Positions 18,623 through 58,318 of a stretch of 64,000 nt of DNA are shown here, in pieces. The position numbers were made by a program, and so were the translations under genes. Position 1 is the first letter of the stretch. Each line of letters starts with the position of its first letter. The notes under the pieces were generated by a model that was not told where the DNA came from, did no database searches, and saw only the letters and a list, made by a program, of their open reading frames with translations. The stretch is from Fimbriimonas ginsengisoli Gsoil 348 (GTDB lineage: Bacteria > Armatimonadota > Fimbriimonadia > Fimbriimonadales > Fimbriimonadaceae): contig NZ_CP007139.1 in the NCBI RefSeq assembly GCF_000724625.1, forward strand, positions 2,790,001 through 2,854,000. The letters are read 5' to 3'.

Positions 18623-18710
18623 GGCGTTAAGGCGTTAAGGCGTTAAGGCGTTAAGGCGTTAAGGCGTTAAGGCGTTAAGGCGTTAAGGCGTTAAGGCGTT
18701 AAGGCGTTAG
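18623..18710. repeat. Perfect 8-bp tandem repeat (GGCGTTAA)n
   Basis: Ten uninterrupted copies of GGCGTTAA (18623-18702) followed by an eleventh with the last base changed (GGCGTTAG). It begins 5 bases after the stop of the beta-lactamase/NamZ gene. Such perfect short arrays usually vary in copy number by slippage. The rest of the gap to 18829 is a low-complexity run rich in CCCAACGCCC and CCACAGTCCAC words with no gene. Confidence 0.95.
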
Positions 18711-28249: not shown

Positions 28250-28378
28250 CCGCTGAGAGCCGATGCCACCGATCCCTCCCGACGCGCCGTCGGGAGGGTC
28301 CGGCCACCGGCCGGGCAATTCCCGCCTCAGTTGCAAACCGCGATCCCGTTTATTAAAAAAACTTTCGCGTCCTATTCG
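28250..28378. repeat. ~130-bp dispersed repeat, family F copy 1
   Basis: Matches 29252-29383 almost base for base over about 130 bp, including the hairpins CCCTCCCGACGCGCCGTCGG-GAGGG and CCGGCCACCGGCCGG and the tail CCCGCCTCAGTTGCAAACCG. A shorter, inverted relative is at 58252-58318. Confidence 0.85.
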
Positions 28379-29155: not shown

Positions 29156-29460
29156 CGCCCGGAAGAATAACACGATGGACACGCCGCGGGAAGAGCGCTC
29201 TGGGATGGACCGCTGTCTCCAGACCGGCCTTCCCCGCAAAGAGACCCGTTCATCGGCTGGGAGCCGAAGCCACCGATCCCTCCCCGACGCGCCGTCGGGA
29301 GGGTCCGGCCACCGGCCGGGCAATTCCCGCCTCAGTTGCAAACCGCAATTCCGTTTTGTAGAAAACTTCCGCATCCTATTCGACTGTCAAAGAGCAGAGC
29401 CAAAGGGGCTCAGTCTCTAATTAGGATGAGAGATCGGTAGACGTTTCCTAAGATGATGTC
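29156..29460. other. Intergenic gap holding family F repeat, no gene
   Basis: Contains the second family F copy (29252-29383), beginning with a family B-like CATCGGCTGGGAGCCGAAGCC. The remaining bases show no gene or clear promoter. The gap separates the lipoprotein gene from the unknown gene that ends at 29461, both on the minus strand. Confidence 0.6.
29252..29383. repeat. ~130-bp dispersed repeat, family F copy 2
   Basis: Second near-identical copy, about 1 kb from the first in the same orientation, so the lipoprotein gene (28409-29155) lies between two direct repeats. Confidence 0.85.
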
Positions 29461-43851: not shown

Positions 43852-44230
43852 GAACGAAGTTTACGCCCAATCGTGGCATGGGCTTCCAGCCCATTTACAC
43901 GACCATCCTGGTCGTGTAAATGGGCCATGTCCTGGAAGGACATGGGACCCACTGGCTAGAAGCCAGTGCCACCGGGGAGCCCCGCAAGATTGCGGTCCTC
44001 ATCACAACGTAAAAAGACGTTAACAAACGGGAACCCAAGGGCAACCTACAATCGTAGTCAGACAAATCGCAAATCCGATGAAACGCCGGGGCACTGTCCG
44101 TCGTTTGCGGAGTAGCCGGGAACGAATAAACGCGTCCTCGGTGTTTTTAGTGACGCTTCGCTCGGAATAAAGCAATAAAAGAGCGAACGAAGGGGTTGTT
44201 CGGGGGCGTCGTCGTTGATGTTGTTGGCCT
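43852..44230. other. Divergent gap before the secretion operon: repeat C, no gene
   Basis: Holds the leaderless promoter of the esterase (43858-43863, minus), then a family C repeat (43873-43973). The remaining ~255 bases before gspE show no open frame with coding character and no riboswitch I can recognise. A long leader for the operon mRNA is possible. The words CAAATCCGATGAAACGCCGG and GTCGTCGTTGATGTTGTTGG stand out but match nothing I know. Confidence 0.6.
43873..43973. repeat. Dispersed hairpin repeat, family C copy 1
   Basis: A run of nested hairpins: GTGGCATGGGCTTCCAGCCC, TTTACACGACCATCCTGGTC-GTGTAAA, and CCCACTGGCTAGAAGCCAGT-GCCACC. The outer ends GTGGC and GCCAC pair. The same words in reshuffled order form 47031-47135 inside the pseudopilin gene. 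Confidence 0.8.
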
Positions 44231-45802
44231 ATGAACTTTGAACTGGAATCGCCTGTCTCGGTCATTACGGCCACCCGTTCCTCCGGCTCGCTCCGGTTCG
44301 TGGATTTGGAGACCGTCAAACCGCTTTCTGAGGCGCTTTCCCTTGCTCCACCCGACTTTGCCCTCAAGAACAAAGTACTTCCACTCTATTTGGAAGGAGA
44401 TGTTCTGGTGGTGGCAATCCCATCCGAGGCCAGCCTGGGCGCGGTGGACGACCTGGGTGTTCTCATCGAGCGCCCGATCCGTGCGGTACTTGCCGACCCG
44501 CTCCTTATCAACAATCTGATTGAGGAGCGGTTCATCGAGGGGATGCTCGCGGGGCTTCCGCAGCAAGACGAAGGGACCTACACCGAGATCGACGAGAACG
44601 CCGATCTCAACGACCTCCAGCAGATGGCCGCCGAATCGGCAGTCGTCCAGATGGTCAACCTGATCTTTTCACAAGCGATCCGCGATAACGCGAGCGACAT
44701 CCACATCGAGCCGTACGAGCGGGAGCTAAGGGTGCGGTGCCGGATGGACGGCATCATGCACGAGGTAATCCGGCCGCCGAAGCGGATGCACGCGGCGCTG
44801 ATCTCCCGCCTTAAGATCCTGGCCGAGCTGAACATCGCCGAGCGGCGGCTTCCGCAGGATGGCCGCATCAAGCTCCAGATCTCCGGCCGCGCGGTGGATG
44901 TTCGAATCTCGATCGTCCCCACGATCTACGGCGAGCGCGCCGTCATGCGCATCCTCGATAAAGGAAGCTCGATCGTCGGTCTCGAAGAGATCGGGATGGC
45001 GCCCGACATTCTCACACGGTTTCGCCGCCTGATCCGGCAGCCACACGGGATGGTCTTGGTAACCGGCCCGACCGGTTCCGGAAAGTCGACCACCCTCTAC
45101 GGCGGATTGACGGAGCTGACCTCGCCGACCACAAACATTCTCACGATCGAAGACCCGGTCGAATATCAGATCTTCGGTGTTGGGCAGATCCAGGTCCGGC
45201 CGGCCATCGGGTTAACGTTCGCCAATGGGCTTCGCAGCATCGTTCGGCAAGACCCCGACATCATCATGGTCGGCGAAATCCGCGACCACGAGACGGCCGA
45301 GATCGCCATCCACGCGGCGCTTACCGGCCACATGGTCTTCTCCACCCTCCATACGAACGACTCCGCGGGCGCCATCACCCGGCTGCTGGACATGGGGGTC
45401 GAGCCGTTCCTTGCGGCGAGCTCCATCATCGCTGTCGTCGCCCAGCGGCTCGTTCGACGGAACTGTCCAAACTGCTCGAAACCCGCAGCCGAGGACGAGG
45501 TGTCGGCGACGATCGGGATTTCGACCCAAGACCTTAAAGGGCGTCACCTGATCCGCGGAACCGGATGCGAAAAATGCGCCGGAACCGGGTTTAAGGGTCG
45601 AGTCGGCCTCTACGAGCTGCTCGTGATCGATGAGGCGATCAAGAAGATGATCACCGATCATGCTCCCGCGAGCACCATCAAAAACTATGCGACCGAGCAT
45701 CTCCATATGCGGACCCTCGTCGAGGATGGCCGCCGGACGGTACTCAATGGACTCACGACCGCCGAGGAAGTGCTTCGGGTTTGCCAGCGAGAGGAACTGT
45801 AG
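44231..45802 (+). CDS. gspE: Type II secretion / pilus assembly ATPase GspE
   Basis: A 523-residue hexameric ATPase that powers pseudopilus assembly at the inner membrane. It has an N-terminal N1-like domain (~20-105), then the GspE core: ASDIHIEPYERELRVRCRMD (~155), Walker A GPTGSGKSTTLYGG (~278-291), the Asp and His boxes, Walker B DIIMVGEIRDHETAE, and a zinc site of CPNC (~411) and CEKC (~446) before FKGRVGLYELL. All key residues are present. It is the first gene of the operon; GspF starts 2 bases after its stop. Confidence 0.96.
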   Translation: MNFELESPVSVITATRSSGSLRFVDLETVKPLSEALSLAPPDFALKNKVLPLYLEGDVLVVAIPSEASLGAVDDLGVLIERPIRAVLADPLLINNLIEERFIEGMLAGLPQQDEGTYTEIDENADLNDLQQMAAESAVVQMVNLIFSQAIRDNASDIHIEPYERELRVRCRMDGIMHEVIRPPKRMHAALISRLKILAELNIAERRLPQDGRIKLQISGRAVDVRISIVPTIYGERAVMRILDKGSSIVGLEEIGMAPDILTRFRRLIRQPHGMVLVTGPTGSGKSTTLYGGLTELTSPTTNILTIEDPVEYQIFGVGQIQVRPAIGLTFANGLRSIVRQDPDIIMVGEIRDHETAEIAIHAALTGHMVFSTLHTNDSAGAITRLLDMGVEPFLAASSIIAVVAQRLVRRNCPNCSKPAAEDEVSATIGISTQDLKGRHLIRGTGCEKCAGTGFKGRVGLYELLVIDEAIKKMITDHAPASTIKNYATEHLHMRTLVEDGRRTVLNGLTTAEEVLRVCQREEL

Positions 45803-45804
45803 GC

Positions 45805-47028
45805 TTGACCACGTATAACTACGTCGCCTACGAAGAGTCGGGGCGTCGAACCAAGGGAGTCGTTGAAGCCTTGGATGTCGACGCCGCGGTCGCAACTCTC
45901 GCCGCCAAAGGGGTGCACATCCTCGACATCAAGGAGAGCAACGCCTCGGTCGTCGTGACGACGCCGGGGAAATCGCCAAGCGTGGGCGCCCGTCCCGTCA
46001 GCCGGGCCGACTTGGCGTTGTTCACCCGCCGGCTAGCCGACCTTGCCTCCGCCGGCTTCCCACTCGATCGGGCGTTGGGAGTCGCCGGCGAGCATTCGGA
46101 CAACGCCACTCTAGGCGTGGTTACCCAGGAAGCGGTGCGCGACGTCCACGCCGGACTTCCGATTTCCGAGGCGCTGGCGAAGCATCCCAAGCTCTTTCCG
46201 CCGGTCTTCACCATGACGCTTCGCGCAGGAGAGGCGAGCGGCCAGTTTCCGGCAGTCGCGAGACGATTGGCCGACTTCCAACAGATCGAAATCCGGCGTC
46301 GGAGTCAGCTCACGGCGGCGCTGGTCTATCCCGCGATTCTTTCGGTTACGGCGATCATGGTCGTCTCGATCATGATGCTCTTCGTTGTCCCCCGCCTCTC
46401 CGGTGTCTTCAAGGGGTTAGGCGACGATCTTCCGATGTCGACAAGGCTGCTGTTGAGCTCCAGCGGCTTCATCATGGATCACTGGATCGGAATTCTCGTT
46501 TCCATCGGTGGCGCCATCGCCTTGTACAAGGCCTGGGTGGCGACCGAGCCAGGCGCGTTGGTGCGCGACAGATGGCTGCTGCACATGCCGATCGCCGGGA
46601 AGGTGATCTCTAAGGCGGTCGTCTCGCGTTACGCCCGCGTCTTGGGAACGCTCGTTTTTGGCGGCGTTCCGATCCTGGAATCGCTGCGAATCGCGGGAGC
46701 GGCCGCGGGCAACCGGGTGTTCGAAAAGAGCAGCCAGAAGGTTCAAGAGGATGTCCGGGAAGGACGCCGGCTTGCCGAGTCGATGAAGGAGACCGGGGCG
46801 TTCAGCTCGATCATGGTCCAGATGGTCTCGGTGGGGGAAGAGATCGGCGATCTCCCAAGCATGCTCAACCGCGTCTCCGAGACGCTGGACTTCGAGGTCG
46901 ACAACGGAATGACGAAGCTGATGACGTTCGTCGAACCGATCATCGTCCTCGTGATGGGCACGTTCGTCGGATTCGTCGTCCTCTCCATCCTCATCCCGGT
47001 TTACCAAGCCCAGGAGCTAGTCAAATGA
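45805..47028 (+). CDS. gspF: Type II secretion / pilus inner-membrane platform GspF
   Basis: A 407-residue inner-membrane protein with two T2SSF domains (~65-190 and ~265-390), each followed by a hydrophobic hairpin: VYPAILSVTAIMVVSIMMLF and VEPIIVLVMGTFVGFVVLSI. Marks include LALFTRRLADLASAGFPLDR and FTMTLRAGEASGQFPAVARR. The start is TTG at 45805, where the conserved TTYNYVAYEESG begins; GAGG lies about 10 bases before it. The stop overlaps the ATG of the next gene. Confidence 0.94.
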   Translation: MTTYNYVAYEESGRRTKGVVEALDVDAAVATLAAKGVHILDIKESNASVVVTTPGKSPSVGARPVSRADLALFTRRLADLASAGFPLDRALGVAGEHSDNATLGVVTQEAVRDVHAGLPISEALAKHPKLFPPVFTMTLRAGEASGQFPAVARRLADFQQIEIRRRSQLTAALVYPAILSVTAIMVVSIMMLFVVPRLSGVFKGLGDDLPMSTRLLLSSSGFIMDHWIGILVSIGGAIALYKAWVATEPGALVRDRWLLHMPIAGKVISKAVVSRYARVLGTLVFGGVPILESLRIAGAAAGNRVFEKSSQKVQEDVREGRRLAESMKETGAFSSIMVQMVSVGEEIGDLPSMLNRVSETLDFEVDNGMTKLMTFVEPIIVLVMGTFVGFVVLSILIPVYQAQELVK

Positions 47029-47660
47029 TCCGTGGCACTGGCATCTTGCCAGTGGGTCCCAAGGGCTTCCAGCCCTTGGCGGAATTCCACGAGCAGGATG
47101 GTCGTGATACGCACGGGCTGGAAGCCCGTGCCACGAGAAGAAATAGCGGATTCACCTACACCGAGATGGTGGTGGTTATCGCCGTCATGGTGTTGATCGC
47201 CTCGATTCTTTTGCCCCGCGCGGATGGGATGCGGAAGGGGCGAGAGCTACGGACATTTAAGAACGAGCTGCGAAACCTCGCCGCGCTCGCCCGGACCCGC
47301 GCAATCGAGTCGGGCGACGTCGTCGCGCTTTCTTACGACAAGACCGAGAAATCGGTCTACGCGATGCAGGAGAACAAGGAAGGGCGGGAGCAGAAAGTCG
47401 GAACGGTAAAGATTCCCGACGGCGTCACCGCTACCCAGTTCGCCTCCGATCAAACCGAGTCGGTGGATGACGGCTGGCGGGTGCCGATTTTCCCCGACGG
47501 AACCTCTACCGGCGGCGGCATCGAATTCGACGAAACCGACGGGATCAGCTTCAACCTCGCCGTTTTCCGGCCGACCGCGCGTTCTATCGTGACCAACGGT
47601 CAGCTTCCCGATCTCTCGCTCGACCATTGGACGGCAGGAGGCTATGAGCCGCGGACGTAA
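47025..47660 (+). CDS. Prepilin-type pseudopilin (GspH-like) with repeat-derived leader
   Basis: A 211-residue pseudopilin. The prepilin motif NSGFTYTEMVVVIAVMVLIA is at ~41-60, with cleavage expected between Gly and Phe and Glu at +5. A GspH-like body follows (ELRNLAALARTRAIESGDVV, PIFPDGTSTGGGIEF). The leader before the cleavage site is ~42 residues, far longer than the usual 6-20. Codons 3-37 are the family C repeat (47031-47135), read as RGTGILPVGPKGFQPLAEFH. No other ATG lies between 47025 and the prepilin motif, and 47025 overlaps the gspF stop. The next gene overlaps its end by 17 bp. Confidence 0.88.
   Translation: MIRGTGILPVGPKGFQPLAEFHEQDGRDTHGLEARATRRNSGFTYTEMVVVIAVMVLIASILLPRADGMRKGRELRTFKNELRNLAALARTRAIESGDVVALSYDKTEKSVYAMQENKEGREQKVGTVKIPDGVTATQFASDQTESVDDGWRVPIFPDGTSTGGGIEFDETDGISFNLAVFRPTARSIVTNGQLPDLSLDHWTAGGYEPRT
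47031..47135. repeat. Family C repeat inside the pseudopilin gene
   Basis: CGTGGCACTGGCATCTTGCC-AGTGGGTCCC, AAGGGCTTCCAGCCCTTGG and CACGGGCTGGAAGCCCGTGC-CACG are hairpins of the same type as 43873-43973. Here the element is translated in frame without a stop. Confidence 0.85.
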
Positions 47661-58251: not shown

Positions 58252-58318
58252 CAGAGCGGAGATTGCCCGGCCGTGGCCGGACCCTCCCGACGACGCGTCG
58301 GGAGGGATCAGATCGACG
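58252..58318. repeat. Dispersed repeat, family F copy 3 (inverted, partial)
   Basis: The reverse complement matches the hairpin core of 28250-28378 (GATCCCTCCCGACG..CGTCGGGAGGGTCCGGCCA..GGCCGGGCAAT) but lacks the tail. It lies between convergent genes and ends 10 bases before the fucosidase stop. Confidence 0.7.

Follow-up and report, generated by a model that had tools for sequence, protein, structure and literature searches.

The GspH-like pseudopilin gene at 47025-47660 (plus strand, 211 aa) of the window, i.e., the whole 64,000-nucleotide stretch of Fimbriimonas ginsengisoli DNA analyzed here, encodes a leader of 41 residues ahead of GFTYTE. According to the original prediction, codons 3-37 of the gene are a dispersed hairpin repeat read in frame without a stop. 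This proved correct: a captured REP/REPIN element of 105 bp, recognized by its genomic copies and covarying hairpins, occupies exactly these codons (47031-47135, plus strand) and is stop-free in frame. It begins 2 nt past the stop of gspF (45781-47028, plus strand; Pfam T2SSF, E=1.6e-54), after codon 2 of the GspH-like ORF, and is flanked within the ORF by ATG ATC on its 5' side and by AGA AGA AAT AGC on its 3' side. The two genes overlap, as had also been predicted; the start ATG shares bases with the gspF stop TGA (47026-47028) in the ATGA at 47025-47028, and a Shine-Dalgarno-like AGGAG (47012-47016, plus strand) is located 8 nt upstream of the ATG. The four codons behind the element (47136-47147, plus strand; RRNS) are the remaining native leader, aligned to AAR of an ortholog in the same-genus genome G017, and are followed by the prepilin cleavage motif G/FTYTE (47148-47165, plus strand; profile match), for which that ortholog has G/FTYIE. 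The predicted precursor contains MIRGTGILPVGPK.. and has FTYTE as its predicted mature N-terminus; without the 105-bp insert, the window would encode MIRRNS directly ahead of GFTYTE.

The gene was labeled GspH-like because its matches to GspH family profiles are below the curated cut-offs (PF12019, 18.5 bits vs 21; TIGR01708, 26.9 vs 80). The prepilin motif TIGR02532 was matched at residues 41-63 with 17.0 bits (cut-off 16.3), and the gene occupies the gspH slot of a gspE-F-H-I-J-K operon. Like the T2SS/type IV minor pseudopilin GspH, it thus has the GFxxxE motif and this gene order, from which its sub-cut-off profiles and its leader set it apart. Prepilin leaders lie on the cytoplasmic side and are removed by prepilin peptidase. 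That they are normally short, as had been stated, holds in this genome as well: the leaders of 30 of the strongest other N_methyl proteins have 3-14 residues counted from the nearest start codon. The GspH-like protein has 41 residues by its ATG, or 24 if the closest ATG, GTG, or TTG, the last TTG of the element, were the start. No REP-derived leader was found among these 30 prepilins. The genome also holds a paralog of the window operon (G000:C1:4587400-4594940, locus L108), gspE-F-(G)-H-I-J-K-L, which differs in having gspG between gspF and gspH.

The captured element is built like a REP pair (BIME/REPIN), with GTGG plus a palindrome at each end and the two ends mutually inverted. Its head REP (47032-47054, plus strand) consists of a GTGG tag and the hairpin CACTGGC-atct-tgccagtg, and its inverted tail REP (47112-47134, minus strand) of a GTGG tag and the hairpin CACGGGC..GCCCGTG. 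Between them lie two internal hairpins, CCAAGGGC..GCCCTTGG (47059-47079, plus strand) and CACGAGCAGGATGGTCGTG (47088-47106, plus strand), the latter with one of the family's base pairs disrupted. The GTGG-plus-hairpin pattern has 7 matches in the window, compared with 0.01 expected. The likeness noted originally to a repeat at 43873-43973 was borne out by an intergenic copy of 102 nt at 43872-43973 (minus strand), which is 82% identical to the captured copy. In the whole genome, a single contig of 5,231,762 bp, at least 40 near-full copies were found by BLAST, the best matches to the captured copy being 94%, 92%, 91%, and 90% identical (E down to 1.9e-39), and a covariance model derived from 42 copies located about 108 distinct places. 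Copy lengths cluster at 105-106 bp, and the family consensus consists of four hairpins closed by terminal inverted repeats. Among the 42 aligned copies, compensatory double changes occur in 16 of the 35 consensus pairs, a value reached by none of 500 shuffles; paired cells make up 98% of the family alignment, versus 27-39% with the partner columns slid. A known RNA family was rejected, the sole Rfam match (proV, 18.7 bits against a gathering threshold of 88.5) being judged a chance one.

Elements of the REP/BIME/REPIN kind and the RAYTs associated with them have been described previously (Nunvar 2010, PMC2817692; Bertels and Rainey 2011, PMC3116915; Di Nocera 2013, PMC3733652). The genome holds 13 Y1-transposase matches, one of which (G000:C1:2235782-2235943, minus strand) lies between mutually inverted copies of the captured element's REP ends. 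This RAYT passes NF047646 (REP-associated tyrosine transposase) with 87.1 bits (cut-off 80) and resembles the solved TnpArep (PDB 4er8) across the HUH and tyrosine regions (E=2.8e-9). It lies within a unit of 739 bp with matching inverted ends, and because the terminal stretch GGTCGTGATACACACGGGCTGGAAGCCCGTGCCACG is common to this unit and the 105-bp element, the small element looks like an internally deleted derivative of the RAYT unit. The RAYT is also the likely mover of the captured element family, as far as the matching ends indicate.

Comparison of the locus with its nearest relative, G017, revealed the site without the repeat; such a comparison had been proposed as a check. On contig 71 of G017, the operon gspE-F-H-I-J-K-L is arranged in the same order as in the window, with identities of 76, 67, 39, 52, 47, 45, and 45%, respectively. 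Its junction reads ..ATCAA/GTGAAAGCAGCGCGA/GGATTCACC (in codons, ATCAA/GTG AAA GCA GCG CGA/GGA TTC ACC), and that of the window reads ..GTCAA/ATGATC, the 105 bp, AGAAGAAATAGC/GGATTCACC. The G017 GspH has a 5-residue leader, MKAAR ahead of GFTYIE, and its start GTG overlaps the gspF stop (GTGA). The original prediction placed the insertion between gspF and the pseudopilin gene; the empty site supports an insertion in frame into the leader, but not one between genes, as the ancestral genes overlap (ATGA/GTGA) and leave no spacer. A covariance search of G017 and 18 further genomes of the genus turned up no copy of the element. The GspH matches that were examined came from a search of 113 genomes in the order; among them, only G017 besides the window has gspF directly abutting gspH, and in the others gspG sits between them. 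The gspF-based orthologs and most GspH matches were therefore set aside as empty-site evidence, and G017, with a GspH of 39% identity, provides the single true empty-site comparison.

The position of the captured copy is in line with the preferences of its family. The gene context of 107 copies was surveyed in loci of about 3 kb with a simple codon-usage gene caller rather than annotation; 99 of the copies are intergenic (e.g., in L003, L005, L077, and L094), and in 66 of these 99 an end of the element is at most 10 nt away from a gene's stop codon. Relative to a uniform distribution over the same gaps, 98 intergenic copies are enriched beside stop codons: 60 lie within 5 nt of one (22 expected) and 48 within 2 nt (17 expected). 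Start codons are not favored (2 copies vs 6 expected). The stops near the elements are TAA (38), TAG (31), and TGA (8), and those elsewhere in the census loci are TAG (74), TAA (45), and TGA (38), so that TGA is scarcer among abutting stops (8/77 vs 38/157). In two genes (L091 562-1518 and L136 61-1518), sugar-nucleotide epimerase-like and IlvD-like by appearance, the TAG stop and the five C-terminal residues come from the element itself. REPs near gene 3' ends have been reported in several genomes, including Pseudomonas entomophila and E. coli (PMC3733652, PMC12306157). The captured copy is among the exceptions to extragenic placement, and its location 2 nt after the gspF stop fits the stop-adjacent pattern. 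Given the ATGA overlap, landing just past the gspF stop is landing in gspH codon 3, and we infer that stop-adjacent targeting combined with such an overlap is a simple route to leader capture. This yields a general rule, testable in any genome: where two genes overlap by ATGA, a stop-adjacent element would become part of the N-terminal region of the second gene's product.

Very likely, then, a non-autonomous, RAYT-mobilized 105-bp REP/REPIN element inserted past the gspF stop, lengthened the prepilin leader in frame, and was tolerated. The element landed 2 nt downstream of the gspF stop, its family's usual kind of site, and the ATGA overlap put the insertion point inside gspH after codon 2; a copy length that is a multiple of three, together with a stop-free frame, extended the predicted leader from 6 to 41 residues. 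Tolerance of such a long leader is plausible and has an obvious reason in that the leader is discarded: it would be cut off on the cytoplasmic side by prepilin peptidase, leaving the mature pseudopilin unchanged and the insertion presumably neutral. The stop-free frame was rejected as a sign of coding selection. Many copies are open in several frames, and 22 of 84 copy-orientations, about a quarter, would by chance be in frame and stop-free at the gspH site, so an open frame alone is no proof of coding.

It is possible, although somewhat unlikely, that the insertion was in frame but damaging, with hairpins that reduce translation of gspH or change the stability of the operon mRNA, which would make the locus an attenuator or a decaying gene. 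The segment 47015-47150 folds strongly (-65.1 kcal/mol, z -4.8), the folding of the 65-nt initiation region alone is not unusual, and a hairpin a few nt after the ATG could lower initiation. Ribosome stalling has been reported for E. coli REPs that lie no more than 15 nt from a stop codon (cited in PMC12306157), and the captured element is only 2 nt from that of gspF. However, neither the ORF nor its prepilin motif nor any downstream gene of the operon is disrupted, the coding score of the ORF is normal for its length, and the coupling of its start to gspF would aid hairpin unfolding.

REPs at the N-terminal end of ORFs are usually questioned on the ground that translation may begin downstream of them (PMC3733652). 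The original claim that no other ATG is available is true for ATG, but the element contains the in-frame candidates TTG 47046, GTG 47052, TTG 47076, and CTG 47118. Initiation at the codon at 47046, 47052, or 47076, each in frame, would give a leader of 24-34 residues that is still partly REP-coded. We regard this as improbable, since the ATG at 47025 has AGGAG at 8 nt and a stop/start overlap common to G017, and the internal codons sit in hairpins; ATG 47025 is thus the predicted start. Among the four codons between the element and the cleavage motif there is no in-frame ATG, GTG, TTG, CTG, ATT, ATC, or ATA. Initiation downstream of the repeat, named beforehand as counter-evidence, is therefore impossible on codon grounds, and the leader is REP-coded wherever translation begins.

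Co-option of the long leader for targeting, delayed processing, or regulation, and its maintenance by selection, is very improbable. Functional pilins can bear very long leaders, e.g., in Streptococcus sanguinis (PMC10191384), but the captured copy resembles any other copy, the same quarter of copy-orientations would fit the frame at this site, and selection and tolerance are indistinguishable on present evidence. Finally, chance similarity, or a repeat unrelated to the leader, is ruled out by the full-length copies of 90-94% identity, by the copy number (at least 40 near-full copies by BLAST and about 108 places by covariance model), and by the exact empty site.

In addition to the leader insertion, two other in-frame captures were identified. 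At L175 763-3036 (minus strand; genome 2146343-2148616), 27 REP-coded residues (RRTGMLPVAKPHDQDGRDTHGLEARAT) link two domains of a 757-aa aldehyde dehydrogenase, whose relatives (62-72% identity) have unrelated, variable linkers of similar length. At L190 811-2490 (minus strand; genome 2235092-2236771), a complete 739-bp REP-RAYT-REP unit lies in frame within a zinc alcohol dehydrogenase, forming a stop-free open frame of 559 aa; in its relatives (58-72% identity), the enzyme is intact and a short variable loop occupies the position of the unit. The leader, the linker, and the RAYT unit share one orientation and frame (R-x-T-G...E-A-R-A-T), which with three cases is suggestive only. It is quite doubtful that the RAYT/REP family constitutes an insertion system aimed at stop codons with ends open in one frame, which may thereby stay protein-compatible, recurrently provide linkers and leaders, and have its transposase made fused to a host enzyme. 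Some alignments of the gene extended beyond the element, but recurrent capture in pilin leaders was rejected for two further copies: at copy 3089278, upstream of a glycosidase-like ORF, translation probably starts downstream of the element, and the ORF at copy 3152124 is no pilin.

The family shares with known REP/BIME/REPIN and RAYT systems GTRG-tagged inverted palindrome pairs, a high copy number (more than 100), a conserved structure, a RAYT between the same REPs, location at gene 3' ends, occasional in-frame copies in ORFs, and termini giving TAG stops. It differs in its Fimbriimonas-type host (Armatimonadota), its four-hairpin 105-bp unit, the prepilin-leader capture with a demonstrated empty site, and the RAYT unit in frame within a host enzyme gene. 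Our literature search found no paper describing RAYTs in Armatimonadota and no relevant one that connects REPs to the leaders of prepilins. The original description of the locus as a clean conversion of a repeat into coding sequence holds for the boundaries and the empty site; it was overstated, as such capture is known from Rickettsia palindromic elements (RPEs) and from REPs in Opitutus and others (PMC3733652). RPEs, as that paper describes them, are mobile palindromes in frame within likely functional proteins, a functional resemblance only. In the sources consulted, RPEs are not linked to a RAYT, and the RPE cases described stay in the protein, whereas the gspH element would be removed by processing. 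In-frame and stop-adjacent REPs have been described before, and the gspH capture is an unusually clean, testable new case, with precisely defined boundaries, a relative that has the empty site, and no alternative start that rescues a non-coding reading.

Other repeats were also observed in the window, including a tandem array of the 8-mer GGCGTTAA (18623-18710) and a further dispersed palindromic family (GATCCCTCCCGACGCGCCGTCGGGAGGGTCCGGCC...; 28271-28360, 29283-29365, and 58266-58309) with members 89-94% alike. A GTAG-tagged family is present as well (9707, 15760, 24602, and 58199), and its likely partner is a second RAYT of 211 aa, located between inverted GTAGCGTCGGCGCCCCCGCCGATG repeats at L015 1301-2028.
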